Positions 46 to 33,016 of a stretch of DNA of 64,000 bases are shown piece after piece. The notes beneath the pieces are model-generated. The model ran no database searches and was not told where the DNA came from. It saw only the letters and a program-made list of their open reading frames with translations. The stretch is from the IMG/VR virus record IMGVR_UViG_3300027996_001813, positions 1 to 64,000 of that record. The stretch is one strand, 5' to 3'. Made by a program: the position numbers and the translations under genes. The number at the start of each line of letters is the position of its first letter. Positions within the stretch are counted from its first letter, which is position 1. This DNA comes from a virus.

Positions 46-240
46 TTACTTGCAGAGAATTGCATCGCACTCGGCAAGAATGCGTTTGGTTTTCTCCGAA
101 ATGGTTTCAGTGACGGGGATCCTCTTGATCGGCATCCCGATACGGGTGCTGATGTTAGCTCTCCCCAAGCGGGTGGCGAGGTTCCGAGCGTATTCGATGT
201 GCCGGGGCGGCTCGCCATTCCATGTGTGTGCTTTACTCAT
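46..240 (-). CDS. Hypothetical protein, 64 aa, leaderless
   Basis: The protein starts MSKAHTWNGEP and has no family I recognise. It has the short 'YARNLATRLG' and 'AECDAILCK' stretches, which could suit a small nucleoside deoxyribosyltransferase-like or Rossmann fragment, but this is too weak to call. A start further upstream is possible in frame, but position 240 is chosen because TTTGCA-N17-TATACT ends 5 nt before this ATG, as in neighbouring genes. No Shine-Dalgarno sequence is present. Confidence 0.6.
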   Translation of the reverse strand: MSKAHTWNGEPPRHIEYARNLATRLGRANISTRIGMPIKRIPVTETISEKTKRILAECDAILCK

Positions 241-245
241 GCCAC

Positions 246-274
246 AGTATACCCTCTCCACTCGAAAATGCAAA
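246..274 (-). promoter_or_regulatory. Leaderless promoter of the 46-240 gene
   Basis: Read leftward: TTTGCA (269-274), 17-nt spacer, TATACT (246-251), 5 nt, ATG at 240. Confidence 0.65.
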
Positions 275-333
275 CTCTAAACCTTATTTATTTCAGGCTC
301 CTGTGCTGCCCGCTACGGCCACCGCCCGCCCGC

Positions 334-350
334 CCGCGTGTCTATACTAC
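334..350 (-). repeat. GTAGTATAGACACGCGG element, copy 1 (reverse)
   Basis: This 17-bp sequence occurs exactly four times in the window: reverse at 334-350 and 1062-1078, forward at 3138-3154 and 4085-4101, always between genes. It contains TAGTAT/TATACT but has no -35 box at the usual distance on either strand. Confidence 0.7.
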
Positions 351-383
351 CTTGGATTTTCTAGGACGCGGCACAACGCAAGA

Positions 384-403
384 GAGGCCCCTTGCGGGGC
401 CTC
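384..403 (-). terminator. Hairpin after the 413-958 gene
   Basis: A perfect 8-bp stem GAGGCCCC/GGGGCCTC with a TTGC loop lies 10 nt after the stop of the leftward gene. It is followed by a modestly T-rich CTCTTG. It is probably an intrinsic terminator, weak in its U-tract. Confidence 0.55.
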
Positions 404-412
404 CTGGCGGCT

Positions 413-958
413 TTATTTCGTGACGGGTTGAGTGCGGGCGATCTTGACGGCCACGGGTGCCGTTGCTTGAGTCAAGAGGTACGTTTCGCCACCGAAGGCC
501 AGCGAGCGGATCGAATCGAGAGCGTAGTCTCGGACGATAACCTCGTCCGCGACCTCTTGACGGCTCTTGGAGCGTGCAGGAAGGAAGGGGCGAACATCTT
601 CCTTGGAGAGTTCCTTGCCCGTGGCGTCGATGTAGGACGTTTCGAGAGCACGCTGGACCTTGGTTTCGAGATAGGTCCGTCCCTTGTGCCCGATCAGCAT
701 GGCCGAGATACGCTCGCCCCATTGACGCGGACGGGCCTCGAAATCGGCCTCGGAATCCTCACGGATGCGTTGACGATTTACAGCGGCCTCATACTGGAAA
801 CCGAGGCAAACGTTGACGCGGGAAATCTTGCGGACGGGACCGAAGGGGTTGCCCGTTTTCTTGAGGCGGGCATCGGTTTCGGTGATGATCGTGGCGAACG
901 TGGCACCCTTGACGGCGTTGATCGTGTCGATCAGGGTGGCTTGATTGATTGCTTTCAT
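413..958 (-). CDS. Hypothetical protein, 181 aa, leaderless
   Basis: The protein begins MKAINQATLIDTINAVKGAT and has a basic middle (PARSKSRQEV). I see no recognisable domain. Translation could begin 31 codons upstream, but TTTGCT-N17-TATAAT ends 6 nt before the ATG at 958, so that start is chosen. The spacer contains an imperfect inverted repeat (CTCC..GGAG). A strong hairpin follows the stop codon. Confidence 0.65.
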   Translation of the reverse strand: MKAINQATLIDTINAVKGATFATIITETDARLKKTGNPFGPVRKISRVNVCLGFQYEAAVNRQRIREDSEADFEARPRQWGERISAMLIGHKGRTYLETKVQRALETSYIDATGKELSKEDVRPFLPARSKSRQEVADEVIVRDYALDSIRSLAFGGETYLLTQATAPVAVKIARTQPVTK

Positions 959-964
959 GCCTTC

Positions 965-993
965 ATTATACCTCCACAATCGGGAGAAGCAAA
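965..993 (-). promoter_or_regulatory. Leaderless promoter of the 413-958 gene
   Basis: Read leftward: TTTGCT (988-993), 17 nt, TATAAT (965-970), 6 nt, ATG at 958. Confidence 0.65.
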
Positions 994-1647: not shown

Positions 1648-1676
1648 GCTCTAGTATAGCTTGAAAACAGAGAATG

Positions 1677-1877
1677 TCAAGCGTAATAGTTGAAGTCTTT
1701 CATCGTGTCGTCGTAGGTGTCCGTCGTGTCTTCGCAGTCAAGACAGTACTCAAACTCATTGTACTCCAACGTGGTGGGGTCAAAGTCCTTCATGCAATCG
1801 TCGTCGTTCGGGTCAATCATGGCCGTCCACTCTTGCCGAACGTCGCTTGAGTTGCAGGTTTTGCAGCGTAGTGTCAT
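1677..1877 (-). CDS. Small zinc-ribbon-like protein, 66 aa
   Basis: Two Cys pairs, CKTC near residue 5 and CLDC near residue 48, suggest a four-Cys zinc site. The protein is otherwise acidic. Its ATG overlaps the stop of the upstream gene (1874-2104) by 4 bases (ATGA), so the two are probably translationally coupled from one leaderless mRNA. Confidence 0.6.
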   Translation of the reverse strand: MTLRCKTCNSSDVRQEWTAMIDPNDDDCMKDFDPTTLEYNEFEYCLDCEDTTDTYDDTMKDFNYYA

Positions 1878-2104: not shown

Positions 2105-2120
2105 GGTTACAGTATAACAC

Positions 2121-2294
2121 CTAATCGGTGGAAGTCAAATGTTCTTTCACTAATGCTTCCAACTCTTGTCTATCAATGTAATCCCCATCGGGCTCGATGA
2201 ACATACCTTGAAATACTTCTGAGCTATCCGAGCTAGGATCGTAGTAGGACGCGGCTGCTAGGGCTGCCAAGAAAGCTTCGATTCGTTCTTTCAT
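2121..2294 (-). CDS. Small hypothetical protein, 57 aa
   Basis: The frame begins MKERIEAFLAALAAASYYDP. It starts in an ATGA overlap with the preceding gene (2291-2455), which argues that it is real and coupled. Its 3' end runs through the promoter of the next leftward gene (1874-2104). Confidence 0.55.
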   Translation of the reverse strand: MKERIEAFLAALAAASYYDPSSDSSEVFQGMFIEPDGDYIDRQELEALVKEHLTSTD

Positions 2295-2610: not shown

Positions 2611-2616
2611 GTTTAG

Positions 2617-2645
2617 ATAATACCCTAGAAATGGGTAGAAGTCAA
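2617..2645 (-). promoter_or_regulatory. Leaderless promoter of the 2610-2121 unit
   Basis: Read leftward: TTGACT (2640-2645), 17 nt, TATTAT (2617-2622), 6 nt, ATG at 2610. Confidence 0.65.
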
Positions 2646-2663: not shown

Positions 2664-2975
2664 TCACTCCTCGCTAGCTTCCTTCCGTGCGTTGCCCATC
2701 TTGCGAGCGTGCTCGCGGACAGCATCGGGAACCTTAGCGTCTGCCAAGGCTTGTAGCTCGTCCTGAGGCGGTACGAACGAGGGAACCTCTCCCTTGGTAG
2801 CACCGGGACGGAAGCACCATAGGGCACAATCGGAGATCTCACACTCCTTGGCCTCCTTGAGCGTGCAGGCACACTCGATACACTTCTCTGTGATCGCATT
2901 GGAGCGGCTGCCCTTGTAGTAGACCTTGAAAGCCCGTGCGGGCCGTTGCCAAATCCATTCGATGACTTGATTCAT
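2664..2975 (-). CDS. Cys-rich phage protein, 103 aa
   Basis: A cluster of six Cys (CIEC, then C, EC, DCALWC) follows 'SRSNAITEKC'. This resembles a small zinc-binding domain I know from many phage hypothetical proteins ('AI..KC..C....v..C....CPL'). The start at 2975 is chosen because it overlaps, as ATGA, the stop of an 18-codon leaderless leader ORF (2972-3028). Function unknown. Confidence 0.65.
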   Translation of the reverse strand: MNQVIEWIWQRPARAFKVYYKGSRSNAITEKCIECACTLKEAKECEISDCALWCFRPGATKGEVPSFVPPQDELQALADAKVPDAVREHARKMGNARKEASEE

Positions 2976-3028
2976 TGTTTTTCCTTGGGTTTGCTTTCCC
3001 ACCAGTCGTATTGATCGTCCGCGTTCAT
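2972..3028 (-). CDS. Leader peptide ORF, 18 aa, leaderless
   Basis: The frame reads MNADDQYDWWESKPKEKQ. TTGCCT (3057-3062), 16 nt, TATAAT (3035-3040) and 6 nt precede its ATG. Its TGA overlaps the ATG of the 103-aa gene. It probably delivers ribosomes to that gene, which has no Shine-Dalgarno site of its own. Confidence 0.55.
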   Translation of the reverse strand: MNADDQYDWWESKPKEKQ

Positions 3029-3137
3029 GGGTACATTATACGGTCAAAACACAGGAAGGCAAGGAGATTTTGCTAGAAATAAGATAAGCCATTGTGCGGC
3101 CTACAAGGCCCCTAGGCGGGCACGAGTCCAAAACAAG

Positions 3138-3333: not shown

Positions 3334-3966
3334 CTAGTGCTGGGGATAGTCAACCCATTCCACCGATTTATCCCAACACGCTCGGCAGGGTCCACACTTG
3401 CCTTCCCGAGTGTACGCTCCACAGACAAAGCCCTTGCCGGTCCCTACCGTGCTCCCTACCGTGCCGGGGATCATGGGAAGGGTATCCCCTAGCATCGGGG
3501 CCGAAACCCTCACCACGAGGTTAGCAGGGGCCTTGTGGGCGTGCTGGCGAATCAGGTCATACTCTTTTGTGGGAATCCAGAATTGGATATCGGGAAGGGC
3601 AAGAGCGATATTCACAATCGCTTGAAAATGATCCTCCGATTGGATATCCCCCGCGTCATGCCAGCGAAATACCCTATCGTCCCCCGTTTTCTTGCGATAC
3701 TTGAAAGAAAGCAATTGGATCATATCCCCTTGCCACGTTTCAAGATCCCCCGTGAGAATGGCAAGCCTACGGGCTTGTGCTTCCTTCACAACCGGGAAAA
3801 CATACATACCCTTGAAAGCGTAACACTTGGAGCACACGCTACGCTTGATCTTGCGAAGGATGGCCCCGATCTTGCACGCGGAAGCCGGGATCCCATAGGA
3901 CCATCCCGGCATTTTGGAGGGATTGGAAAGCCCGCCGATGGCTTGTTCTAGTGCTTTGATCGTCAT
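3334..3966 (-). CDS. gp88-like Cys-motif protein, 210 aa
   Basis: The protein has 'GLSNPSKMPGWSYGIPASAC' followed by VCSKCYAFKGMY. This is the pattern of the phage 'gene product 88' family (N-K-M-P..S...A..C..G......CS.CYA.KG.Y). Two further Cys pairs near the C-terminus (CGPCRACW) may bind metal. The family's function is not established. TTTGCTT-type -35 and TATACT end 5 nt before the ATG at 3966, so the mRNA is leaderless; an in-frame start 11 codons upstream is inside the promoter. Confidence 0.75.
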   Translation of the reverse strand: MTIKALEQAIGGLSNPSKMPGWSYGIPASACKIGAILRKIKRSVCSKCYAFKGMYVFPVVKEAQARRLAILTGDLETWQGDMIQLLSFKYRKKTGDDRVFRWHDAGDIQSEDHFQAIVNIALALPDIQFWIPTKEYDLIRQHAHKAPANLVVRVSAPMLGDTLPMIPGTVGSTVGTGKGFVCGAYTREGKCGPCRACWDKSVEWVDYPQH

Positions 3967-4162
3967 GCCAGAGTATACCCTCGAAAGAACAGAAAGCAAG
4001 TAGATAACCCTTTTCTTTTTTCAAGAGGGCGATTTTCTCTCAGACGCTCTCTAAGCCGTTCTCCCGACCTTTTTACAATCGGACGTAGTATAGACACGCG
4101 GGCATATTCCTCGCGGGCTGAAAACGCCTTACAGGCTGTCAAGTGAAAACTGGGAAAAAGGT
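3967..4162. other. Intergenic stretch with promoter and repeat
   Basis: Holds the leaderless promoter of the 3334-3966 gene and copy 4 of the 17-bp element (4085-4101). No gene seen. Confidence 0.5.
4085..4101 (+). repeat. GTAGTATAGACACGCGG element, copy 4 (forward)
   Basis: Exact forward copy, between the gp88-like gene and the leftward tRNA-like gene. Confidence 0.7.
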
Positions 4163-4352
4163 GAGGCGGGCAGGATTCGAACCTGCGACAAATTGCACGT
4201 ACTAGTATTTAGCAACATCATTAGATCTAACAGAATAGGCTACTATTTTGCTGCCGTGGACACCTTCGGGAGCTACCCTAAACATCCTTAGCTAAGACCC
4301 TTTGATCGAGGGAGATTATCCCCCCGCTCTGGCCAGACTGAGCTACCGCCCC
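4163..4352 (-). tRNA. tRNA-like gene with a ~110-nt insertion
   Basis: Read leftward from 4352 there is a canonical 5' part: acceptor GGGGCGG, D-arm GCTC..GAGC and a 5-bp anticodon stem GGGGG/CCCTC with loop ATAATCT. About 110 nt later come a canonical T-arm (GCAGG-TTCGAAT-CCTGC) and the matching acceptor strand CCGCCTC. The extra sequence sits where the variable loop belongs, not in the anticodon loop. The 3' end reads ACCT, so CCA is not encoded. Anticodon uncertain (AAT in the most symmetrical fold). A promoter with TATACT (4385-4390) and TTGACA (4407-4412) lies upstream. Confidence 0.6.
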
Positions 4353-4384: not shown

Positions 4385-4423
4385 AGTATACCTCAGGGAG
4401 CCGCTTTGTCAAGCGACTCCCTG
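4385..4423 (-). promoter_or_regulatory. Promoter whose -35 lies in a hairpin loop
   Basis: TTGACA (4407-4412), 16 nt and TATACT (4385-4390) read leftward toward the tRNA-like gene. The -35 box occupies the loop of a hairpin, CAGGGAG..GC (4394-4404) against GC..CTCCCTG (4413-4423). Confidence 0.6.
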
Positions 4424-4431: not shown

Positions 4432-4653
4432 TCAATCCGAAATATCAGGAATGCACCCGACAGCCGAAAAGATTACCGCGATTGTAGCAAGAACAATTGA
4501 GCCGACAGCATACAATACAAACCGGCCAAACAAAGTGATGGCTTCGTCCATCGCTTCCGAGTCCCCATCGTCAGCCGATGCAAACCCCATGTAAACGTCG
4601 GGGGGAGCCCCCCGAACGGAACCGCGTCGGTCCCCAATGGTATGTCTTCCCAT
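4432..4653 (-). CDS. Small membrane protein, 73 aa
   Basis: Hydrophilic N-terminal half and one clear membrane segment near residues 46-68 (FVLYAVGSIVLATIAVIFSA). Function unknown; small single-span proteins of this kind are common early phage products. The ATG at 4653 lies 8 nt behind TATACT of a TTGACA-N17-TATACT promoter, slightly further than the neighbours. Confidence 0.6.
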   Translation of the reverse strand: MGRHTIGDRRGSVRGAPPDVYMGFASADDGDSEAMDEAITLFGRFVLYAVGSIVLATIAVIFSAVGCIPDISD

Positions 4654-4661
4654 GTGAATAC

Positions 4662-4700
4662 AGTATAGCATAGGGGCCAGGGCTTGTCAACCCTGGCCCC
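4662..4700 (-). promoter_or_regulatory. Overlapping terminator hairpin and promoter
   Basis: A perfect 10-bp hairpin GGGGCCAGGG/CCCTGGCCCC (4673-4682, 4691-4700) follows the DUF932 gene leftward and probably ends its transcript. Its 8-nt loop contains the -35 TTGACA (4685-4690) of the next promoter, with TATACT at 4662-4667. Confidence 0.65.
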
Positions 4701-6380: not shown

Positions 6381-6409
6381 TTGACAGGGTTAGATCCTAA
6401 GGGTATGAT
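6381..6409 (+). promoter_or_regulatory. Leaderless promoter of the 6415-6714 gene
   Basis: TTGACA (6381-6386), 17 nt, TATGAT (6404-6409), 5 nt, ATG at 6415. Confidence 0.65.
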
Positions 6410-6414
6410 TGGGC

Positions 6415-6714
6415 ATGTACTTACAAGAAACGATCACCGTCCAAAACGATTGGCATAAGAATCGTTTAGAGCTTAGGATAGAAATTCAGTCGGATGATGC
6501 CGATTACGTCTATCGTATGCTCGAAAGAGAAGAGGCCGAGCGATTGCGAGATCATTTAACGCAAATGCTGGAAAAACCTGTGGAATGCTTCCATATCAGG
6601 TGCAAACAAGAAGCGTCTTTTTTGCTTGACGGCAAGAACTTTTGCACTGGCCATTACAATTTACTTCAGGAAGGGCATAAGATTTCGGATCCTTTGCTTG
6701 ACTTTCTAGAATAA
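6415..6714 (+). CDS. Hypothetical protein with Cys/His cluster, 99 aa
   Basis: Acidic helical first half, then CFHIRC and CTGH (near residues 57-62 and 77-80), a plausible zinc site. Not recognised. It is the only rightward gene in a leftward region and has its own leaderless promoter. Another rightward promoter sits over its 3' end. Confidence 0.6.
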   Translation: MYLQETITVQNDWHKNRLELRIEIQSDDADYVYRMLEREEAERLRDHLTQMLEKPVECFHIRCKQEASFLLDGKNFCTGHYNLLQEGHKISDPLLDFLE

Positions 6715-7968: not shown

Positions 7969-7997
7969 TTGACAGAGTACGTTTTAAAGCGTATCAT
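7969..7997 (+). promoter_or_regulatory. Leaderless promoter of the 8004-8210 gene
   Basis: TTGACA (7969-7974), 17 nt, TATCAT (7992-7997), 6 nt, ATG at 8004. Confidence 0.7.
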
Positions 7998-8003
7998 TCC
8001 CAC

Positions 8004-8210
8004 ATGAAAGAACAACTAAGACAAGAGATCAATCTTCTATGGGAACAGATCCTACTACAAAAGGAACAAGGGCTCAGTGCTAAGACGGCTGAGGAGCGGC
8101 TGGGCAGGCTTACTGTGATCCTGAGGGACATAGAAACGGCTGATTCTGCTGCCGCTGCTGCGAAACTGGCAGAAGCATCCTACCACGTCACTACGCAGGC
8201 CCTCCGTTAA
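8004..8210 (+). CDS. Hypothetical helical protein, 68 aa, leaderless
   Basis: Predicted almost wholly helical (MKEQLRQEINLLWEQILLQ, then an Ala-rich stretch). Not recognised. First rightward gene of the long rightward block. Confidence 0.65.
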   Translation: MKEQLRQEINLLWEQILLQKEQGLSAKTAEERLGRLTVILRDIETADSAAAAAKLAEASYHVTTQALR

Positions 8211-8432: not shown

Positions 8433-8567
8433 ATGACTACAATCCCTCACGCCGACTTCTATCAAACCCCAGATGGCGACTGGGTTCTCCAAATCGTGGT
8501 TCGTGTAGAAGATGAAGACTTCTCGACTGGCCGTTCTTATGTTGTCTTTTACAGGAAAGTAGCTTGA
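8433..8567 (+). CDS. Small hypothetical protein, 44 aa
   Basis: The frame starts MTTIPHADFYQTPDGDW and reads through a beta-rich VLQIVVRVEDEDF. No family recognised. Its stop overlaps the -35 box of the next promoter. Confidence 0.5.
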   Translation: MTTIPHADFYQTPDGDWVLQIVVRVEDEDFSTGRSYVVFYRKVA

Positions 8568-8591
8568 CTTAGCCGCTAATGCGGCTATACT
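8564..8591 (+). promoter_or_regulatory. Leaderless promoter with palindromic spacer
   Basis: TTGACT (8564-8569) and TATACT (8586-8591) flank the inverted repeat TAGCCGC-TAAT-GCGGCTA (8570-8587), which also covers the start of the -10 box. It probably is an operator. Confidence 0.65.
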
Positions 8592-8596
8592 GTGAC

Positions 8597-8803
8597 ATGT
8601 ACACATCCAAAGACCTCCCCCTGAGGCAACAGAAGATCATCGAGCTACTAGAGGATGGTGGTGCCCCCATGACCGCTAGCGAGATCGCTCTAGAGCTAGA
8701 TACCCAACTCCATCGCACGCAATGCGACCTTTCCTTCCTGATTAACTCTAACTACATCACTCATGGTAGTTTTGGAGAGTATCAGGCTTGCCCTAAACCA
8801 TAA
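8597..8803 (+). CDS. Putative winged-helix-like protein, 68 aa
   Basis: The order 'PLRQQKIIELLEDGGAPMTA' then SEIALELDTQLHRTQCDLSFL and 'YITHG' fits a small winged-helix DNA-binding domain (helix, recognition helix, wing). A role as a transcription regulator is inferred from this. Start at 8597 lies 5 nt behind TATACT; a longer frame begins inside the promoter. Confidence 0.55.
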   Translation: MYTSKDLPLRQQKIIELLEDGGAPMTASEIALELDTQLHRTQCDLSFLINSNYITHGSFGEYQACPKP

Positions 8804-14047: not shown

Positions 14048-15164
14048 TCAATCTTCGTGGCGAGGTATCATCACGGAGGTTGGTCTAGGTCTAGAGTTTA
14101 GCTCTAAGTATCTACGAGTACCCGGTGCATCCAAAACGATTCTAGGCATTGACTGTCCGTATGATGCTACTGGTCGCTCCGCAGGTATGCGTGCGGTATC
14201 ACTTGAAAACGCTAAGAGATTAGCTCATGAGAACCTGTTTAAAGTGTTGGGACGAACAGAACATAGTCCCAGTCTGTTTGGATTAGCTATTACCGGAGCA
14301 CACTACCAGGATCGACCGTCGCATGGATGGATATACATTGCCACAAGAGAATGGCAAGCGTACATGCACTTCTCGGTAGCTGCCTGTGCCGACCGTGAGT
14401 GGGTTGGCCGCATTGTAAGTGATCGTGTACAGTGGCTCATGAATGCGTGTATGCTGAGCACCGACACTTGGGTTGAACACATTAATAGTATTGAGGATTC
14501 CCTTGAGACTCACAATATCGATGTGTTGTATGCTCCTGGTGTCTCTGATGCTGAACGCATGATCCTTTTGAAGCCGCTCAATCCTTTGGTTTATCACAAA
14601 GGCAAGTTCCAACGGGTGATGGATTACGTTAGGGATTATCCCACGATCTATCCTGGGGCATTCAATCCTCCTACTCAAAAACACCTGAGCGTGGAGAGTT
14701 GCTTGTACGAGATTTCACAACAACACTACTATAAGGGCGGGCTCTCTATTGAGGATATGCTTCATAGAGTGCGTATGTTGGATGTGGAAGGTCGCCCGAC
14801 TCTACTTACGCAAGCACCTAGATTTATAGACAAACGCCAGACGCTTACTACTGCTGGTGCAAAAGACATTATCTTTGTACTGGGTGCTGACGCTTGGAAC
14901 ATGACGATTACTGCACACCAGTATCCGTCTGTGGAATGGCTAAGTGATCGTCTGCCCAATACTGATTTCGTGATTATGTCACGCAAGGGTATGGACATTC
15001 AAGACAATCAAATCTCTGCCACGCTTAACTGGTCAGTGTCAAGTGTCCGCGACATGGATCACTTAAGCTCTACAGAAATACGAGAGCACGACAACCCCCA
15101 CGAACACGAGTACCTAACTCCTGCTGTATCTGATTACATCAAAACAAGAGAATTATATACTTGA
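14022..15164 (+). CDS. CinA-like/NMN adenylyltransferase fusion, 380 aa
   Basis: Residues about 205-380 are a nicotinamide-nucleotide adenylyltransferase: GAFNPPTQKH (212-221), FVLGADAW (285-292) and LSSTEIRE (348-355), all expected motifs for making NAD+ from NMN and ATP. Residues about 10-130 resemble the C-terminal domain of CinA, the NMN deamidase fold: 'VPGASKTILG' aligns with VPGSS..., and 'GLAITGAHYQDRPSHGWIYIA' with GIAITG...G.VYIA. The catalytic Ser of CinA (in ESCTGG) is replaced: the aligned stretch reads EVGLGL. The front domain may therefore bind NMN without cleaving it. Confidence 0.8.
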   Translation: MEQFCNQLNQSSWRGIITEVGLGLEFSSKYLRVPGASKTILGIDCPYDATGRSAGMRAVSLENAKRLAHENLFKVLGRTEHSPSLFGLAITGAHYQDRPSHGWIYIATREWQAYMHFSVAACADREWVGRIVSDRVQWLMNACMLSTDTWVEHINSIEDSLETHNIDVLYAPGVSDAERMILLKPLNPLVYHKGKFQRVMDYVRDYPTIYPGAFNPPTQKHLSVESCLYEISQQHYYKGGLSIEDMLHRVRMLDVEGRPTLLTQAPRFIDKRQTLTTAGAKDIIFVLGADAWNMTITAHQYPSVEWLSDRLPNTDFVIMSRKGMDIQDNQISATLNWSVSSVRDMDHLSSTEIREHDNPHEHEYLTPAVSDYIKTRELYT

Positions 15165-15188
15165 CAGACGGCATTCACGGGATATACT
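15161..15188 (+). promoter_or_regulatory. Leaderless promoter with GTG start
   Basis: TTGACA (15161-15166), 16 nt, TATACT (15183-15188), 6 nt, GTG at 15195. Confidence 0.6.
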
Positions 15189-15194
15189 ATCCTC

Positions 15195-15320
15195 GTGAAG
15201 AAGCTCGAAAACAAAGAATGGTGCTTTGTCATTGGTGACGGGGTGCTGGAATGCTTGTCCCGATTGGGTTTACAGACTTTCGGGCTGGCAAGGGCAAACT
15301 TATTCGCATCACAATCTTAA
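15195..15320 (+). CDS. Small hypothetical protein, GTG start, 41 aa
   Basis: The frame reads KKLENKEWCFVIGDGVLECL and continues to a stop at 15320. No family. The GTG sits at the same distance from TATACT as ATG does in the other leaderless genes, and no Shine-Dalgarno is present. Confidence 0.5.
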   Translation: MKKLENKEWCFVIGDGVLECLSRLGLQTFGLARANLFASQS

Positions 15321-15327: not shown

Positions 15328-15355
15328 TTGACATACGTGCTAACCAGGGTATAAT
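15328..15355 (+). promoter_or_regulatory. rIIA promoter
   Basis: TTGACA (15328-15333), 16 nt, TATAAT (15350-15355). Unlike the leaderless genes, the ATG lies about 45 nt downstream; a weak GAAGGG occurs midway. Confidence 0.7.
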
Positions 15356-15400
15356 GTACTCACACAAGGCGAAGGGAAACCTTCAAACACTCAAAGACAC

Positions 15401-18350: not shown

Positions 18351-18378
18351 TTGACTATCTTCGCTTCCAGGGTACAAT
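18351..18378 (+). promoter_or_regulatory. Promoter of the tRNA/structured RNA region
   Basis: TTGACT (18351-18356), 16 nt, TACAAT (18373-18378). No protein-coding gene follows for over 600 bases; tRNA-like sequence does. Confidence 0.65.
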
Positions 18379-18449
18379 GTACCTGTCAAGTCAACTGAGA
18401 CCTGACAACTCCTCGTCACGAGGGGTCTTTGAAAACTCGGAACCAATCA

Positions 18450-18480
18450 TAGCGGCAGAGACGCATAGCGTCTGCCGCTA
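18450..18480 (+). other. Long perfect-arm hairpin
   Basis: TAGCGGCA/TGCCGCTA outer stem with inner GACGC/GCGTC and a 3-nt loop. It is not followed by a T-run, so processing or stability is more likely than termination. Confidence 0.5.
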
Positions 18481-18488
18481 AGGAACAT

Positions 18489-18563
18489 GCATCGGTGGTG
18501 TAATTAAAGCACGCTTCCCAGCGGGGGGAGTAGAGCAGGAGGTAGTGCCTGCCCGACGCACCA
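18489..18563 (+). tRNA. tRNA-like structure with non-canonical loops
   Basis: 75 nt with all four tRNA stems: acceptor GCATCGG/CCGACGC (one A-C mismatch), D-stem GTG/CAC, anticodon stem CTTCC/GGGAG, T-stem GCAGG/CCTGC, discriminator A and CCA. The loops are wrong for a decoding tRNA: D-loop without GG, anticodon loop CAGCGGG with A33 (GCG if read), and 8-nt T-loop AGGTAGTG. It may be a tRNA mimic or a decayed tRNA. Confidence 0.45.
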
Positions 18564-19005
18564 GTACAGGGTGTTAGAAAACATCTCGTGTTATATCCGT
18601 TGACAAACCCTAGGATTTGCTTCGACTACAAGAATGGATAAGCAACGAGAGCTTCGAAACGCTGGCGGCATGTTGGAGCTACCAATAGTGCCACACCTTA
18701 GGCGGGGGATACCCCGCCACCTTACACGTTGTTTTTAAGGCGACTGGAGTAATCATCCAGTGTTAATCTAGCAGAGTTGTGGAATACTCTTAAAAGGTAA
18801 AACGGAATGGTGGACTGCTCGCTAGAGCCGAAGGCCCACAGACCTTAAAAATAACATTACTCACCCTCTTACGGTAAACGAATAAGTCTCCAATGTGTGC
18901 TTGCGTAGCAAGCTGAACTAGTAGCTGATGATACAAGAAGAAGCTTTTGGAGGGTCGGCTCGTTGTTTATCGTAAATACAACGCTGCAATAGGGCAGCGA
19001 ATGAT
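18564..19005. other. Structured noncoding stretch (442 bases)
   Basis: No gene seen. Several stems occur, for example GGCGGGG-GATA-CCCCGCC near 18694-18711 and CTGG/CCAG near 18745. It lies between the tRNA-like element and an HNH gene, an arrangement that could be an intron remnant, but I could not identify group I or II core motifs. Confidence 0.4.
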
Positions 19006-19464
19006 ATGCAAAGATTTTGGAATAAAGTAAACAAAAACTCTGGCGTTTTTGGAGTAGATGGCAAGTATCCAACCGAATGCTGGGAATGGCAGGGCGGTAG
19101 TCGTGGCAATGGATATGGTGCAATAAAAATTAACAAAAAAGTTATTGATGTTCATCGTGTTTCATGGACGCTCCACTTTGGATTAATTCTTCATGGTCTT
19201 TGTGTATGTCACAAGTGCGACAATAGAAAATGCGTACGATCAGATCATTTATTCTTAGGTACGAGAGACGATAATAATAAAGATATGGTTACTAAAGGAC
19301 GTAACCGCAGAGGTAAAACAAAATTATCTCCAGAAGACGTAGAGAATATACGTCAAGAGTATCGTCCGGGCGTTAAGGGTTATGGTTTTAAAGCTCTAGC
19401 TAAAAAATACCAAGTAAGTCACAACGCCATTAAAGGAATAGTTCGATACAAGTACTGGAAATAG
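19006..19464 (+). CDS. HNH homing endonuclease, 152 aa
   Basis: RFWNKVNKN, CWEWQGG and CVCHKCDNRKCVRSDHLFLG give the same HNH layout as 6913-7401, with a C-terminal recognition helix (KALAKKYQVSHNAIKGIV). It ends 4 bases before tRNA-His, so it sits in the tRNA array as a free-standing element. AT-rich compared with neighbours. Confidence 0.88.
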   Translation: MQRFWNKVNKNSGVFGVDGKYPTECWEWQGGSRGNGYGAIKINKKVIDVHRVSWTLHFGLILHGLCVCHKCDNRKCVRSDHLFLGTRDDNNKDMVTKGRNRRGKTKLSPEDVENIRQEYRPGVKGYGFKALAKKYQVSHNAIKGIVRYKYWK

Positions 19465-19468
19465 TATG

Positions 19469-19543
19469 GTGCATATGGTGTAGGTGGCAGCATATCTCAC
19501 TGTGACTGAGACGGCATGGGTTCAAACCCCATTATGTACCCCA
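19469..19543 (+). tRNA. tRNA-His (GTG)
   Basis: Acceptor GTGCATA/TATGTAC, loop CTGTGAC with anticodon GTG, T-arm ATGGG-TTCAAAC-CCCAT, discriminator C and CCA. A G precedes position 1, opposite C73, the usual histidine identity pair. Confidence 0.9.
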
Positions 19544-19635
19544 AACAATGCAATATTCAGACAGCTTTAGTAACTGTCGAAGGCAAAATCTAGTTCGTGG
19601 ATATTGTATTTTCAAGCTCCGTGAGCGGAGCGAAC

Positions 19636-19724
19636 GTCGTAGTAGACCCCTAAAGAGAGGGCCGAGGCTGTAACCCTCGTGGCCGTAAAGGCCCCGCTGG
19701 GAGCATTACCCAGATGCGGCACCA
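19636..19724 (+). tRNA. tRNA-Tyr (GTA)
   Basis: Perfect anticodon stem CGAGG/CCTCG with loop CTGTAAC (anticodon GTA) and a long variable arm GGCC..GGCC, proper for Tyr. Acceptor GTCGTAG/ATGCGGC has wobble pairs and one mismatch. T-stem CTGGG/CCCAG is fine but its loop AGCATTA lacks TTC. CCA encoded. Confidence 0.75.
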
Positions 19725-20122
19725 ATACAAGCTAGGCGAGATAACAGTAACGCCTTTCCTAGAACCTAGGATAACTAGGGTAACTCGTAGGGCCGCAAAC
19801 CCTTTCTAGCTTTTGAACACGCCATTGTTAGTGGCTAGTGGGGGTGGCGACAAGCCCCATGATGTAGAAACGACATGACAGTCGTAACAAAAGCCCCTAG
19901 TCTCGGAGAGACCGGAGCCGACCTCCGTGAGTTGTAATGGTGGAGGCGAGTCCTTGGGCATGGTAAGCCAAAACTCAAGGACAATATCCTTTGAAGCTAG
20001 TACAGCAGTCACCGAACATCGTAGGAGAAGGAATCACTGCGAACGAATAGATTCTGATCATTTATGATCGAAAATCATATGAAAACACCCAAAATCACTG
20101 CGATCTGATTGATTTTGAGTAA
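19725..20122. other. Structured noncoding stretch (398 bases)
   Basis: No gene seen. Many local stems: CGGAG-CCGAC-CTCCG near 19913-19930, GTCCTTG/CAAGGAC near 19950-19983, CAAAATCA/TGATTTTG near 20092-20118. ACAAGCTAGG occurs at both ends (about 19727 and 20140), the second copy inside the next tRNA-like element. Confidence 0.4.
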
Positions 20123-20202
20123 TGGCTTTTCGTCTAAAAACAAGCTAGGACACCTCCTATTTACAGGAGGAAATGCAGGTGCGAGTCCTGCGGGGCCAAC
20201 CA
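20123..20202 (+). tRNA. tRNA-like gene, anticodon undetermined
   Basis: Acceptor TGGCTTT/GGGGCCA (three G-U pairs), D-stem GTCT/GGAC with a long loop lacking GG, anticodon stem CCTCC/GGAGG with an 8-nt loop TATTTACA, T-arm GCAGG-TGCGAGT-CCTGC, CCA encoded. The irregular loop allows TTA (would read the TAA stop) or TAC (Val). Confidence 0.45.
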
Positions 20203-20232
20203 TACACCCCTTAAGGGGATCTCAGAAGCTTC

Positions 20233-20247
20233 TAGCATTTTTGAGAA
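20233..20247 (+). repeat. TAGCATTTTTGAGAA element, copy 1
   Basis: 15-bp sequence repeated exactly at 32284-32298. In both places it follows an ACACCCCTTA hairpin region and precedes a gene start. Confidence 0.5.
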
Positions 20248-20258
20248 AACAAGAATAT

Positions 20259-20333
20259 GCCGCATAAGTGTAACGGGTGACACGCAAGCCTTCCAAGTTT
20301 GATAAGCGAGTTCGAGCCTCGCATGCGGTTCCA
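20259..20333 (+). tRNA. tRNA-Gly (TCC)
   Basis: Acceptor GCCGCAT/ATGCGGT, anticodon stem CAAGC/GTTTG with loop CTTCCAA (TCC), T-arm GCGAG-TTCGAGC-CTCGC, discriminator T, CCA. Confidence 0.92.
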
Positions 20334-20353: not shown

Positions 20354-20381
20354 TTGACAGCGGTCAAAACGAGGGTATACT
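20354..20381 (+). promoter_or_regulatory. Leaderless promoter of the deoxyribonucleotidase gene
   Basis: TTGACA (20354-20359), 16 nt, TATACT (20376-20381), 7 nt, ATG at 20389. The -35 is part of a small palindrome TTTGAC-AGCG-GTCAAA. Confidence 0.68.
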
Positions 20382-20388
20382 AAATATC

Positions 20389-20946
20389 ATGATGAACGCA
20401 CCCAAGTTCGATAGTGACAAGATCGCACTCTTCGATATGGACGAAACCCTTGTCAATTTTCAAGGTCCGCTCCGTGAAGCTTTGCTTCGCATGAAAGGTC
20501 CAGAAGAAGAGATCCCTGAAAATCTGTGGGCTATGCCCGATCACTGGTATGCACGAGCCCAGGCAATCAAAAAGGAACCTGGATTCTGGCGTAACCTTCC
20601 GAAGCTGCAATGGGGTTGGGATGTACTCGATATCGCTCGCGAGATCGGATTTGACATTCATGTTCTTACCAAAGGCCCCACGACAGGCTCAGTAGCCTGG
20701 AGTGAGAAGGTTGATTGGGTACGAGAGAATCTTCCCGAAGCCACGCTACATATCACTGACGACAAACGCATTGCTTACGGTCGTGTATTCGTGGATGACT
20801 ATCTTCCTTTTATGGAGCTTTGGCTGCAAAATCGCCCACGCGGACTGGGGATAGTGAATTGTCCAACACAAAATCCAAATCTTGTGAATGCTCACGATGG
20901 TATGGATCAAGTACGTACGAGATTACAAATGGCATATGACAGATAA
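20389..20946 (+). CDS. HAD-type 5'(3')-deoxyribonucleotidase, 185 aa
   Basis: Motif I is ALFDMDETLVNF (DxDxT) near residue 14, with 'VLTKGPTTG' as motif II (T) and 'RVFVDDYLPFMELW' as the acidic motif IV. Size and order fit the 5'-nucleotidase (NT5C) branch of HAD phosphatases, which dephosphorylate deoxynucleoside monophosphates. It could adjust dNTP pools. The start at 20389 follows from the promoter; a longer frame runs back through tRNA-Gly and is rejected. Confidence 0.78.
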   Translation: MMNAPKFDSDKIALFDMDETLVNFQGPLREALLRMKGPEEEIPENLWAMPDHWYARAQAIKKEPGFWRNLPKLQWGWDVLDIAREIGFDIHVLTKGPTTGSVAWSEKVDWVRENLPEATLHITDDKRIAYGRVFVDDYLPFMELWLQNRPRGLGIVNCPTQNPNLVNAHDGMDQVRTRLQMAYDR

Positions 20947-21415: not shown

Positions 21416-21443
21416 TTGACTAGCACGAGAATCGTGCTATACT
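21416..21443 (+). promoter_or_regulatory. Leaderless promoter with palindromic operator
   Basis: TTGACT (21416-21421) and TATACT (21438-21443) flank TAGCACGA-GAA-TCGTGCTA (21421-21439). Nearly the same palindrome lies in the promoter at 24577-24604. Confidence 0.72.
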
Positions 21444-21449
21444 TTGAAC

Positions 21450-21701
21450 ATGAACAGATTCATCATCTACTGCCCTGAGTCGGAATCATTCGTTAGAGTT
21501 CGTCACGGATGGACCTCTGGGCATCCTGCGGAAGCAGTCAACAGCTACGCTTCACGAAGCGAAGCGAGTAAAGCACAAAGCCGTTTTCACAGCCTTCGAA
21601 ACTGTCAAGTTGTTGAAGTGCAGAAGACAGTAACATTCATGGATGGCCGAGCGGTCGAAGGCATTGGGCCGTTAACCCAACGAGAGAAATCTCCATCCTA
21701 G
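21450..21701 (+). CDS. Hypothetical protein overlapping a tRNA, 83 aa
   Basis: The protein starts MNRFIIYCPESESFVRVRHG; a beta-rich opening typical of small phage proteins with 'RSEASKAQSRF' later. Its last 65 bases lie inside the following tRNA gene (21637-21725), so the C-terminus 'DGRAVEGIGPLTQREKSPS' is encoded by tRNA sequence. Start chosen 6 nt behind TATACT. Confidence 0.6.
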   Translation: MNRFIIYCPESESFVRVRHGWTSGHPAEAVNSYASRSEASKAQSRFHSLRNCQVVEVQKTVTFMDGRAVEGIGPLTQREKSPS

Positions 21702-21725
21702 GTTCGAATCCTAGTCCATGAGCCA
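21637..21725 (+). tRNA. Long-variable-arm tRNA with anticodon GTT
   Basis: Perfect acceptor TCATGGA/TCCATGA, Ser-like D-arm (GGCCGAGCGGTCGAAGGC), anticodon stem TTGGG/CCCAA with loop CCGTTAA, long variable arm GAGA..TCTC, T-arm CTAGG-TTCGAAT-CCTAG, discriminator G, CCA. The body is that of tRNA-Ser (class II, G73), yet the anticodon reads GTT, which decodes Asn codons; position 33 is C instead of U. Confidence 0.75.
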
Positions 21726-24576: not shown

Positions 24577-24604
24577 TTGACAAGCACGAAAATCGTGCTA
24601 TACT
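24577..24604 (+). promoter_or_regulatory. Leaderless promoter with palindromic operator
   Basis: TTGACA (24577-24582) and TATACT (24599-24604) flank AGCACGA-AAA-TCGTGCT (24583-24599), matching the promoter at 21416-21443. Confidence 0.72.
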
Positions 24605-24609
24605 TGAGT

Positions 24610-25068
24610 ATGAACGAAATTTCCTCTCATCAGGCAACTCTCATTCACGACATTGCTTCTTACAAGGAAGTGATGGGAGCTAAGCGTTTCAAGCGTACTA
24701 AGGAAGAAATGGCAATGGGGCTGACTGCTGAAAAAGCGTTGGAACTACGCCTAAGGGAAGCCAACGATCTTCCGGCTGGTGCTGTTGGTAGTCGCCCCAC
24801 GCCGCGAGCATCTACGTCACGAAAGGGCGATATTACGATCAAGATTCGTCCTGCTGCTGGCGTTGAGTCTAGTTATTTCGAACGACTCCCAAATGGGCCT
24901 GTTGAAATAGTTCTTGATGAAAAGTGGTACGGTTGGTTTGGAACCCTGTTAGACTCTCCGTACGACGGAGACAACACGAAACTTCTAAACCACATTCTTG
25001 ACCTTGGTATAGGTGAAGCATTAACAAGGTTTCATTTTCCAAAAGACATTGAGGATTATGAATCGTAA
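24610..25068 (+). CDS. Hypothetical protein, 152 aa, leaderless
   Basis: Starts MNEISSHQATLIHDIASYKE. The C-terminal half has 'PVEIVLDEKWYGWFGTLLDS'. No family recognised. The ATG is 5 nt behind TATACT. Confidence 0.65.
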   Translation: MNEISSHQATLIHDIASYKEVMGAKRFKRTKEEMAMGLTAEKALELRLREANDLPAGAVGSRPTPRASTSRKGDITIKIRPAAGVESSYFERLPNGPVEIVLDEKWYGWFGTLLDSPYDGDNTKLLNHILDLGIGEALTRFHFPKDIEDYES

Positions 25069-25420: not shown

Positions 25421-25630
25421 ATGAAATATAAAACTAAAGATAATCTAATAACGTTGGGCCTTGCAATATTAGTAATACTTTCTATCATTGCTGTTATTGG
25501 CACAATTATGGATGCTGGAAAAGACTCAGTTCGTCAAGAAGCAGTAGATAATGGACACGCCACCTGGGTTGTAAAAGAAGGATCCAAATTTACTAGTTTT
25601 GAGTGGAATAACTTGACACACGAGCAATAA
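25421..25630 (+). CDS. Small membrane protein, 69 aa
   Basis: One membrane segment near residues 9-30 (LITLGLAILVILSIIAVIGT) and a hydrophilic C-terminus. Function unknown. Its 3' end carries the -35 box of the next promoter. Confidence 0.55.
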   Translation: MKYKTKDNLITLGLAILVILSIIAVIGTIMDAGKDSVRQEAVDNGHATWVVKEGSKFTSFEWNNLTHEQ

Positions 25631-25640
25631 CGAGTATAAT
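25613..25640 (+). promoter_or_regulatory. Leaderless promoter of the 25647-25796 gene
   Basis: TTGACA (25613-25618), 16 nt, TATAAT (25635-25640), 6 nt, ATG at 25647. Confidence 0.72.
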
Positions 25641-25646
25641 GTAGTC

Positions 25647-25796
25647 ATGAACGAACAAAACGAAACAGTCACTCTCACTCGTGCAGAGCACGAACAACTC
25701 TTGGAAGATCAGCAGTTCCTTCGGGCACTACAAGCTGCTGGCGTTGACAACTGGGAAGGGTATGCAGATGCCCAAGAAATCCTGGAAGACGAATAA
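25647..25796 (+). CDS. Small acidic protein, 49 aa, leaderless
   Basis: The frame reads MNEQNETVTLTRAEHEQLLE, then 'DQQFLRALQAAGVDNWEGY'. It looks like a small helical phage protein ('LTR.EHE.LL.D...L.AL.AAGVDNWEGY.DA'), a type I know only as hypothetical. Promoter and composition support it. Confidence 0.65.
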   Translation: MNEQNETVTLTRAEHEQLLEDQQFLRALQAAGVDNWEGYADAQEILEDE

Positions 25797-27629: not shown

Positions 27630-27668
27630 AGAAGCGGAGCTTGACTTGCTCCGCTTCTGGTGTATAAT
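27630..27668 (+). promoter_or_regulatory. Hairpin with -35 in its loop, leaderless promoter
   Basis: A perfect 11-bp hairpin AGAAGCGGAGC/GCTCCGCTTCT (27630-27658) follows ssb. Its 7-nt loop TTGACTT contains the -35 (27641-27646); TATAAT at 27663-27668 lies 6 nt before the ATG at 27675. Confidence 0.68.
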
Positions 27669-27674
27669 GGTAGC

Positions 27675-28112
27675 ATGAAGAGACTAGTCCTACTACGAGG
27701 CCCGTCAGGAAGCGGCAAAAGCACAATCGCCAAGGCTGTCGGTGGCGAAATCTTTGAAACCGACAAGTTCTGGGAGAGAAAAGGTCCATATGACTTCGAC
27801 CCCTCCAAATTGGGGCTCGCTCATTCCTGGAACCAAACGAACGTCAGGACTGCGTGTAATTTTGATGTAGAGTTGGTCGTGGTGGCTAACACTAGCATGA
27901 CTCGATGGGAAATGAAACCTTATCTTGACATGGCTGAGAAATACGGGTACACTGTAGAAGTGCTACGCACCCCTGGCCCCTGGGATCCCGAAGTGCTCTT
28001 TGAGCGTAACGTTCATGGTGTTCCTTTGGCAACGCTACGAAAGCAGATCAACAAGTACCAACCTCACGACGACGAAACCGAGTGGACTGATATGTCTATT
28101 TTTCAAGCATGA
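27675..28112 (+). CDS. P-loop kinase of the N4BP2/polynucleotide-kinase type, 145 aa
   Basis: Walker A GPSGSGKST at residues 9-17, then 'ETDKFW' (the DxF region), 'VVVANTSMTRWEM' (Walker B-like strand with NT..) and 'RNVHGVPL' (the R..H..P lid). This layout is that of AAA_33-type kinases related to N4BP2 and polynucleotide kinase. A role in phosphorylating RNA ends fits the nearby CCA enzyme and RNA ligase but is inferred. Leaderless start at 27675. Confidence 0.78.
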   Translation: MKRLVLLRGPSGSGKSTIAKAVGGEIFETDKFWERKGPYDFDPSKLGLAHSWNQTNVRTACNFDVELVVVANTSMTRWEMKPYLDMAEKYGYTVEVLRTPGPWDPEVLFERNVHGVPLATLRKQINKYQPHDDETEWTDMSIFQA

Positions 28113-30527: not shown

Positions 30528-30540
30528 TCGCGGAGCGATT

Positions 30541-31764: not shown

Positions 31765-31765
31765 T

Positions 31766-32251
31766 ATGGTACACAAAACAGTCTATCTTGCTGGCCCCAT
31801 CGACGGTCTCTCATACGCAGAGGGTATCGAGTGGCGACAGCATGCACAAAAAGACCTTGCGGTCCATGGTATCAAGGGCATGTCGCCCCAACGGGGCAAG
31901 GGATACATCGCAGACTTCGCGGAGATCGCTGGCGAAATGGACTTCTCTAAACAAGAAGGACTAACAGACAACCCCATGAGTACGTCACGAGGCATCTTGG
32001 CTCGTGACAAATTTGATGCACTGAATTGTTCGGTCTTGTTCGTCAGCTTCCTGGGTGCTACGCGAGTTTCAACTGGCACCATTATGGAAATTGCCTGGGC
32101 ATATCAATTAAACAAACCCATCGTCGTTGTCGTTGAGGACGACGATACTCTACATAAAAATCATCCCATGCTCAGAGAGACATTTGATTATGTAGTAAAC
32201 AATATTGACGCAGGGTTGGATATTGTCAAAGGAATATTCGAGGGCTACTAA
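31766..32251 (+). CDS. Nucleoside 2-deoxyribosyltransferase-like protein, 161 aa
   Basis: 'TVYLAGPIDGLSYAEGIEWR' is the strand-turn-helix opening of the family. 'DKFDALNCSVLFVSFLGATR', 'STGTIMEIAWAYQLNKPIVV' continue the pattern (the D, and E in GT..E..A). It may exchange or hydrolyse nucleoside bases. A DprA/TIR-like or nucleotide-hydrolase role in the same fold cannot be ruled out. Confidence 0.8.
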   Translation: MVHKTVYLAGPIDGLSYAEGIEWRQHAQKDLAVHGIKGMSPQRGKGYIADFAEIAGEMDFSKQEGLTDNPMSTSRGILARDKFDALNCSVLFVSFLGATRVSTGTIMEIAWAYQLNKPIVVVVEDDDTLHKNHPMLRETFDYVVNNIDAGLDIVKGIFEGY

Positions 32252-32268
32252 GGAACACCCCTTAGTGC
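32252..32268 (+). other. Small hairpin
   Basis: CTAAGG/CCTTAG type stem (CTAAGGaacaCCCCTTAG) after the deoxyribosyltransferase gene. Similar to a hairpin before the other TAGCATTTTTGAGAA copy. Confidence 0.4.
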
Positions 32269-32283
32269 ATATACCCACGCTCG

Positions 32284-32298
32284 TAGCATTTTTGAGAA
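32284..32298 (+). repeat. TAGCATTTTTGAGAA element, copy 2
   Basis: Exact copy of 20233-20247. Confidence 0.5.
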
Positions 32299-32333
32299 GA
32301 CTGACATGAATGATTATTTAAAGCAAAGAATGC

Positions 32334-32362
32334 TTGACAAAGAGGAAAACCCGGCGTATAAT
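32334..32362 (+). promoter_or_regulatory. Leaderless promoter of the dNMP kinase gene
   Basis: TTGACA at about 32334, 17 nt, TATAAT ending 6 nt before the ATG at 32369. It lies inside a longer reading frame that starts at 32306. Confidence 0.7.
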
Positions 32363-32368
32363 ACGACT

Positions 32369-33016
32369 ATGAAGGAAGACCCCACAGGAACACCCGGTCC
32401 TCTTTTTATCGTCTTATCCGGTAAGAAGCAGACTGGCAAGGATACGGCAGCGTTGATGGCATCTAAGATGCTGTACGAGGCCAACAAAACCTTCAAGATC
32501 ACCGCTTTTGCCGAGGTCTTGAAAGACGCAGCGATTACTGTGCTAGGTCTCGACCGAGATCTTGTGTACGGGACCAACGAAGACAAGGAGACACCTACAC
32601 ATGTTCTATGGGATACATTCCCGTTGAGCATTCGCTTTAAATACAGAGAGACATGGTACATGCCACTAAGGTCTGGCCCGATGACGATTCGCGATGTATT
32701 GCAAGTGATGGGGACAGATATCTTTCGCACGATGTTTGACTTTAACGTGTGGGCTAACGCACCCTTCAACCGTGATTGGGGTAACCTAGATGTGGTTATC
32801 ATTTCTGATTGCAGATTTCCCAACGAAAAGAGAGTAACAGAAGACCATTCTGGCGTCATCATTAGACTAGAGAGGAAAACGGGACTCAAGGATGGACATT
32901 CCAGCGAGACTGCTCTCGATGGACGCACGTTCGAGTGCGTATACAATAACAATGGGTCCATGGAAGACCTGGAAGCATTCATGCGTGGCGTACTACAAAA
33001 ACTGAATCTACTATAA
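32369..33016 (+). CDS. Deoxynucleoside monophosphate kinase, 215 aa
   Basis: The P-loop SGKKQTGKDT near residue 17, 'FAEVLKDAAITVLGLDRDLV' then 'TIRDVLQVMGTDIFR' and 'VVIISDCRFPNEKRV' match T4 gene 1-type dNMP kinases, which phosphorylate dNMPs toward dNTPs. Start at 32369 follows from the promoter; an in-frame ATG at 32306 would add 21 residues and might be used from a second transcript. Confidence 0.85.
   Translation: MKEDPTGTPGPLFIVLSGKKQTGKDTAALMASKMLYEANKTFKITAFAEVLKDAAITVLGLDRDLVYGTNEDKETPTHVLWDTFPLSIRFKYRETWYMPLRSGPMTIRDVLQVMGTDIFRTMFDFNVWANAPFNRDWGNLDVVIISDCRFPNEKRVTEDHSGVIIRLERKTGLKDGHSSETALDGRTFECVYNNNGSMEDLEAFMRGVLQKLNLL

Follow-up and report, generated by a model that had tools for sequence, protein, structure and literature searches.

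Among phage mRNAs, the lambda cI message transcribed from PRM is the classic leaderless example. Lambda is also named among leaderless cases in the description of bacterial leaderless ('TA-led') genes, which carry a sigma70-like -10 box about 10–12 bp before the start codon and no Shine-Dalgarno (SD) site (PMC3160421). In the Thermus phage phiYS40, most middle and late mRNAs are reported to be leaderless, with IF2 raised and IF3 lowered (PMC3594737). Phages phiEco32 and 7-11 are described as using host sigma70 for early genes and a phage sigma factor for late genes, and the middle/late promoter of phiEco32 is a single element, tAATGTAtA (PMC8948821). Here we analysed the first 64,000 bases (the window) of virus record IMGVR_UViG_3300027996_001813, which has 105,766 bases and is designated G000 below. 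An initial annotation had proposed that many genes in this window are expressed from leaderless promoters, with a -10 box 4–8 nucleotides (nt) before the start codon and no SD site. Our analysis makes it probable (roughly 0.8) that many early genes of this phage are transcribed from sigma70-type promoters as leaderless messages, followed by a sigma switch to a class of messages with SD-containing leaders.

All 18 start coordinates listed by that annotation, which itself spoke of "at least 17" genes, were tested, and the proposed spacing was found at every one. The -10 boxes (TATAAT, TATACT, TATTAT, TATGAT or TATCAT) end 5–8 nt before an ATG at 17 starts and before a GTG at 15195, and the spacer is always 16 or 17 nt, in agreement with a sigma70-type layout of TTGACA and TATAAT separated by 16–18 nt. 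Fourteen of the 18 sites have TTGACA or TTGACT at -35, and weaker boxes stand at 240 (TTTGCA), 958 and 3966 (both TTGCTT) and 3028 (TTGCCT). When at least five of six matches were required in both boxes, 25 promoters were found in bases 1–44,200, 18 of them with an ATG or GTG at 4–8 nt, whereas 60 dinucleotide shuffles of the same region in 2-kb blocks gave means of 3.85 promoters and 0.75 start-adjacent ones (maximum 5). It should be noted that this set of 18 differs from the annotated one, with weak -35 sites dropped and a few starts of mini-ORFs (ORF, open reading frame) added. At the same threshold, bases 44,201–105,766 hold seven promoters, none with a start codon at 4–8 nt. The strict pattern TTGACN-N16-17-TATANT-N4-7-ATG matches ten times in the whole record and never when reversed. 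The absence of SD sites at the listed starts was borne out with one nuance: SD-like matches of 4–6 nt lie upstream of 240, 958 (GGAGGT), 3966, 6415 and 27675, all of them above or against the -10 box and therefore outside a leaderless RNA.

The window would correspond to the presumed early region, with a portion of the late one, of an uncultured tailed phage. Short genes occupy the minus strand at 1–6.2 kb, a plus-strand block at 6.4–44.1 kb includes nucleotide metabolism genes, rIIA, NAPRTase, an RNA ligase-like gene and tRNAs, and genes lie on the minus strand from 44.2 kb. No close cultured relative was found, since RecA identities in named phages are low (29–38% among 25 of the 798 matches listed, all 798 below 60%) and a tRNA was the sole match to named phages when bases 1–25,000 were compared with a phage collection. 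A search of viral contigs with the RecA-like protein yielded 26 loci at 48–100% identity, in records of up to 183 kb. These define a phage family with uncultured members, whose genomes carry G-numbers; the near-identical G001 was left out of family counts, giving nine family genomes (1.38 Mb), and G002, G003, G008, G009 and G013 entered the pattern search alone. A host look-up through genome contigs gave one match, a 158-kb phage contig inside a Hydrogenophaga metagenome-assembled genome (MAG), which is weak as host evidence.

The promoter arrangement recurs across this family. The strict pattern has 68 matches in the nine genomes and none when reversed, as compared with four matches in two records, and one reversed match, in 14 other phages (about 2.03 Mb; these include T4, T5, lambda, SPO1, phiEco32, phiKZ, phiYS40, P23-45 and S-PM2). 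Similarly, a start codon lies 4–8 nt behind 155 of 430 family promoters (at least 10 of 12 matches), whereas only 17 of 110 promoters show this spacing in four control stretches, which served for both spacing and SD rates (T4, 1–100 kb; SPO1 and phiEa21-4, 1–50 kb each; all of lambda).

The initial annotation further placed the transcription start on the start codon itself, a claim that is strongly supported by the sequence evidence, because the spacing peak at 6 nt, the pyrimidine initiator base and the conserved N-termini agree. The usual distance from the -10 box to the first transcribed base (+1) is 6 nt, and RNA polymerase favours a pyrimidine directly before a purine +1 (the Y(-1)R(+1) initiator). 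The first ATG or GTG behind the 430 family promoters lies at 6 nt in 71 cases, at 5 nt in 28 and at 7 nt in 15. A pyrimidine directly precedes the start codon at all 18 annotated sites (16 C; p = 3e-6) and, family-wide, at 103 of 116 leaderless ATG starts versus 885 of 1782 ordinary ORF starts; genes behind the late motif described below show a far weaker bias (47 of 78). Among 95 orthologue pairs that are leaderless in both members, the start register is the same in 56 and differs by at most one residue in 75. N-terminal residues are kept between leaderless orthologues although the promoter spacers differ, and conservation runs from the first ATG, for example RHTIGxxRGSVRGAPPDVY at 4653 and MKRLVLLRGPSGSGKST at 27675. 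For 15 of the 18 starts, an in-frame stop is found at most 22 codons upstream, at 2–6 codons for 1647, 6415 and 3028 and just two codons before ATG 1647; the exceptions are 958, 20389 and 32369, where the upstream frame is open for 37–40 codons. Within the same genes, folding is weaker in the first 36 nt of leaderless mRNAs (n = 113) than in windows further along (-3.38 versus -5.96 kcal/mol). Finally, an SD of at least 5 nt stands upstream of nine of 121 leaderless starts (a class that takes -10-to-start distances of 4–9 nt and includes some chance sites), which is near the family background of 3–5% at internal ATGs.

Orthologues of individual genes are leaderless to varying extents. The 73-aa gene at 4653 is leaderless in all four relatives in which an orthologue was found, and the GP88 gene at 3966 in four of five (G004, G006, G010 and G011, not G007). 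Leaderless orthologues were also found for the ORFs at 2610 (G004 and G010, not G011), 24610 (G004, G007 and G014C4; three of six relatives), 27675 (G006, G007, G011 and G014C4; four of eight) and 50798 (G004, G005, G006, G010 and G014C4; five of eight). In G007, the orthologue of 958 lies behind a 35-nt leader.

A second promoter-like motif, with the consensus YTTAGTGTANT, marks the other class of genes. TTAGTGTA ranks first among eight-letter words enriched upstream of long family ORFs (48 observed, 3 expected), and TTAGTGTANT occurs at 82 family sites, of which 76 precede an ORF, where 60 letter permutations average 15.1 and 4.8, respectively. An SD of at least 5 nt is present in 46 of the 78 genes with TTAGTGTA 12–120 nt upstream, versus the nine of 121 leaderless starts (Fisher p about 2e-15), and reaches AGGAGGT in some family genes. 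The initial annotation had contrasted the leaderless genes with SD-led virion genes at 48622, 47022 and 44505 and a gene at 36864. All four SD sites were found (TAAGGAG, AGGAG, TAAGGAG and GGAGGT, respectively), while a virion assignment received weak support for 47022 and none for the others. Within the window, the motif precedes 36864 and, as variants, 47022 and 49094, the first two being SD genes of the initial annotation. A protein-family scan of eight of the nine genes behind the late motif in G004 gave one portal-like and two endonuclease-like products and five without a match, so that the 'late' label rests on few functions. Sigma70_r2 matches above the cut-off occur in all nine family genomes, with two or more in eight and one in G012, and the sigma gene at 37234–37767 lies directly downstream of 36864. 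TCATAAT was also considered as a promoter class and rejected, with a start at 6 nt in 7 of 217 sites and most sites lacking a start within 60 nt.

Promoters, start codons and associated genes in the record (aa, amino acids; distances run from the -10 box or motif to the start codon)
Element	Start and gene	Position	Strand
Promoter TTTGCA-17-TATACT	5 nt to ATG 240; 64-aa ORF 46-240	241..274	-
Promoter TTGCTT-16-TATAAT	6 nt to ATG 958; 181-aa ORF 413-958	959..992	-
Promoter TTGACA-16-TATACT	5 nt to ATG 1647; 84-aa ORF 1393-1647	1648..1680	-
Promoter TTGACT-16-TATACT	6 nt to ATG 2104; 76-aa ORF 1874-2104, stop overlaps next ORF's ATG 1877	2105..2138	-
Promoter TTGACT-17-TATTAT	6 nt to ATG 2610; 52-aa ORF 2452-2610	2611..2645	-
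Promoter TTGCCT-16-TATAAT	6 nt to ATG 3028; 18-codon mini-ORF 2972-3028, TGA overlaps ATG 2975 of 103-aa gene	3029..3062	-
Promoter TTGCTT-16-TATACT	5 nt to ATG 3966; GP88 family, ORF 3334-3966	3967..3999	-
Promoter TTGACA-17-TATACT	8 nt to ATG 4653; 73-aa ORF 4432-4653	4654..4690	-
Promoter TTGACA-17-TATGAT	5 nt to ATG 6415; 99-aa ORF 6415-6714	6381..6414	+
Promoter TTGACA-17-TATCAT	6 nt to ATG 8004; 68-aa ORF 8004-8210	7969..8003	+
Promoter TTGACT-16-TATACT	5 nt to ATG 8597; 68-aa ORF 8597-8803, stop overlaps ATG 8803	8564..8596	+
Promoter TTGACA-16-TATACT	6 nt to GTG 15195; 41-aa ORF 15195-15320	15161..15194	+
Promoter TTGACA-16-TATACT	7 nt to ATG 20389; NT5C-like 5'-nucleotidase, ORF 20389-20946	20354..20388	+
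Promoter TTGACT-16-TATACT	6 nt to ATG 21450; ORF 21450-21701	21416..21449	+
Promoter TTGACA-16-TATACT	5 nt to ATG 24610; 152-aa ORF 24610-25068	24577..24609	+
Promoter TTGACA-16-TATAAT	6 nt to ATG 25647; 49-aa T7 gp5.9-like RecBCD inhibitor, ORF 25647-25796	25613..25646	+
Promoter TTGACT-16-TATAAT	6 nt to ATG 27675; AAA_33 kinase-like, ORF 27675-28112, stop overlaps ATG 28109	27641..27674	+
Promoter TTGACA-17-TATAAT	6 nt to ATG 32369; deoxynucleotide monophosphate kinase, ORF 32369-33016, stop overlaps ATG 33016	32334..32368	+
Extra leaderless promoter ATAACA-17-TATAAT, beyond the range of the initial annotation	6 nt to ATG 50798; 107-aa ORF 50475-50798	50799..50833	-
rIIA promoter TTGACA-16-TATAAT, early-type, leadered, not leaderless	45 nt to ATG 15401, no SD	15328..15400	+
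Late-type motif TTAGTGTAGT, at head of sigma-factor operon	21 nt with SD GGAGGT to ATG 36864	36835..36844	+
Phage sigma factor	Sigma70_r2 3e-10; PHROG RNA polymerase sigma factor	37234..37767	+
Second sigma factor, beyond the window		about 81077-81742	-
Late-type motif variant ATAGTGTACT	37-nt leader with SD AGGAG to ATG 47022	47058..47067	-
Late-type motif variant CTAGTGTATT	48 nt to ATG 49094, weak SD	49141..49150	-

Promoters with their spacing and initiator base, conservation in relatives, a second motif followed by SD leaders, and sigma genes can all be read from the DNA itself; from these we infer a programme in which the 5' ends, the early and late timing, the pairing of sigma factors with motifs, the coupling and the decoding route would be as follows. 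Many early genes would be read by host RNA polymerase of the sigma70 type. Their promoters are close to consensus and positioned to make the A (or G) of the start codon the predicted +1, so that the mRNAs would be leaderless. The ribosome would read the 5'-terminal AUG directly, possibly by 70S or IF2-favoured decoding, and downstream genes of an operon would be reached by coupling at overlapping stop and start codons (ATGA, TAATG). Later, phage sigma factors would shift transcription to the YTTAGTGTANT promoters, whose mRNAs would carry leaders, most with an SD site. A tentative extension, to which we give somewhat less than even odds, is that these large phages thereby switch their mode of translation initiation, from leaderless early messages decoded at a 5'-AUG by a 70S- or IF2-favoured route to phage-sigma late messages decoded through SD sites, as a mirror of phiYS40.

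Several observations weigh against this reading. There are 83 family promoters of the sigma70 type, some of them chance sites, with the first ORF 15–80 nt away. The most distant relative, G012, has no more start-adjacent promoters than the T4 stretch (10 of 71 versus 11 of 71); the strict pattern matched 10 of 13 records in the first search of relatives, leaving three without a match, and was absent from 14 of 15 further, mostly short, records, with one matching. SD sites precede called genes at a rate of 0.12 in the record, a weak enrichment over 0.05 at internal ATGs, and of 0.16–0.29 in relatives; since these rates are below those of the four control stretches (0.35–0.59), low SD use is partly genome-wide. 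For the late motif, G000 has just five sites scoring at least 15, and a scan of G000 alone at threshold 9 gave no difference between the real sequence (27) and shuffled ones (19–31), which is why high-scoring sites and family-wide counts alone were used. Matches to sigma region 4 in the family genomes are all below the cut-off. The codon-usage gene caller gave the exact start for five of the 18 annotated ORFs and another start for two, and did not call the remaining 11, so that the coding status of several short ORFs rests on the promoter, the open frame and, for some, orthologues. Two orthologues each were found for 20389 and 21450, none of them leaderless. rIIA has a leader of 27–69 nt in six of nine genomes (SD matches of 0–5 nt); it is leaderless in G006 and G007 and lacks a clear promoter in G011. 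At 32369, no stop interrupts the reading frame between an upstream ATG at 32306 and the start codon, a stretch that includes the promoter. This extension begins MNDYLKQRM and is common to G010, which has no leaderless promoter here, and G014C4, which has one. This kinase gene may therefore have two starts, including a conserved longer form predicted from ATG 32306, with the long form perhaps made from read-through RNA and the short one from the leaderless promoter.

Abutting genes set a further limit. In the record, 47 of the 104 called genes either overlap the preceding gene or begin at most 8 nt after it. This points to translational coupling instead of one of the two initiation modes, and several leaderless ORFs end in an ATGA or TAATG overlap with the next gene. 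Of the proposed split into two translation modes by gene class, the association of sigma70-type promoters with leaderless starts and of YTTAGTGTANT with SD leaders is supported, while leadered sigma70-type promoters and abutting genes fall outside it. The promise of exact starts went too far, as 32369 may also start upstream, although starts are in general well predicted.

The early mRNAs could also be leaderless merely because they mirror the ordinary style of the host, with nothing specific to the phage. Leaderless genes are reported to exceed 20% in Actinobacteria and Deinococcus-Thermus (PMC3160421), and the low SD use of G000 and of the family as a whole fits such a host. However, the same phages place SD leaders behind the late motif in 46 of 78 genes, so the host ribosome probably recognises SD sites, and in the Hydrogenophaga MAG (4.7 Mb) the 158-kb phage contig holds all seven strict matches and the remainder has none, although the bin may be wrong and a GC-rich host may hide weaker boxes. 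We regard this explanation as unlikely, but as the strongest of the competitors.

Much less probable is that the promoters are real while transcription begins elsewhere, giving ordinary leaders, with the tight spacing a product of genome compaction. The early-type promoters with a first ORF 15–80 nt away and the conserved upstream start at 32369 could be read in this way, yet the distances peak at 6 nt instead of spreading over a short range, a pyrimidine precedes the start codon, and there is little SD for leaders of this sort (9 of 121). We give still less credence to misassigned start codons, by which the true starts would be internal ATG or GTG codons with an SD and the stretch between would be a leader: an in-frame downstream start with an SD of at least 5 nt within 40 codons is available at 15195, 24610 and 32369, but is lacking at the other 15 of 18, and residues are conserved from the first ATG in genes with orthologues. 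Leaderless early messages followed by a sigma switch remain the preferred reading.

Some short ORFs and leaders next to these promoters deserve separate description. On the minus strand, short ORFs that immediately follow promoters (in the stretches 3028–2664, 2610–2291 and 2384–2121) show ATGA overlaps into the next gene, and such mini-ORFs look as if they were feeding ribosomes to it. The ORF at 2384 would require a TTG start 3 nt past the -10 box, and the 2975 gene has a leaderless orthologue in G004. A general role for leader mini-ORFs was rejected, as the GTG mini-ORF before a DUF932-like gene is not in frame in relatives when inspected by eye. In G000 (at 5776 on the minus strand), G006 and G010, this DUF932-like gene is preceded by a sigma70-type promoter and a 46–48-nt leader, and a short GC-rich hairpin-like stretch was seen by eye in the leaders of G000, G004 and G006. 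The rIIA leader of G000 contains GAAGG-GAAA-CCTTC, and both elements are possible candidates for 5' stabilising hairpins.

Among the leaderless ORFs, the product of 25647–25796 (plus strand, 49 amino acids) matches the Pfam family Phage_T7_Gp5_9, the T7 gp5.9 RecBCD inhibitor (E 5.6e-18), and is likely a counter-defence protein. The 83-aa leaderless ORF at 21450–21701 shares 65 nt with a tRNA-Asn gene at 21637–21725 (plus strand). Elsewhere on the plus strand, the region 18380–20260 (about 1.9 kb) has few ORFs and a promoter-like site at 18373, and contains a tRNA-His and an ORF at 19006–19464; tRNA-like fragments were seen there by eye, and Rfam gives two tRNAs and no other family. Behind a strong promoter at 4390, a tRNA-like gene with an interruption of about 110 nt was noted by eye at 4150–4345 on the minus strand; it was reported neither by ARAGORN nor by Rfam at the gathering threshold.

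The pattern predicts the starts of many short genes missed by a codon-based caller and names two promoter classes together with the likely sigma factors. The initiation mode is apparently sorted by promoter class within one genome and kept over large sequence distances; therefore, both modes could occur in a single infected cell, at different times. If the switch in initiation mode is real, each half of the programme could be regulated by the phage, or come under attack, independently of the other. rIIA, leadered or leaderless depending on the relative, offers a natural experiment on why genes gain or lose a leader.

In comparison with known systems, the present phage resembles phiYS40 as a large tailed phage in which one class of mRNAs, presumably a temporal one, is predicted to be mostly leaderless. 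The leaderless class of phiYS40 is middle/late, whereas here it is sigma70-type and presumably early, a polarity deduced from the promoter types; phiYS40 has one match to the strict pattern. A phage-borne IF3 or bS21 was rejected as a cause, as IF3_C and bS21 each had matches in none of nine family genomes at E 0.1. The TA-led genes of Actinobacteria and Deinococcus-Thermus differ in that here a nearly full -35 box TTGACA accompanies TATAAT or TATACT, in a phage that also has SD-led genes. Lambda contributes a single leaderless gene, as opposed to a gene set, and no strict match. As for phiEco32, its tAATGTAtA element resembles TTAGTGTANT, and the present family also encodes a sigma factor with region 2; however, the consensus here is YTTAGTGTANT and not tAATGTAtA, phiEco32 has no strict leaderless match, and the early/late timing and sigma specificity of our phages are predicted. 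Among the papers listed by a narrow search of open-licence literature, none describes a phage whose early genes are leaderless and whose late genes are SD-led. In the present family, a leaderless class stands beside a probable sigma switch, and the two classes appear reversed relative to phiYS40.

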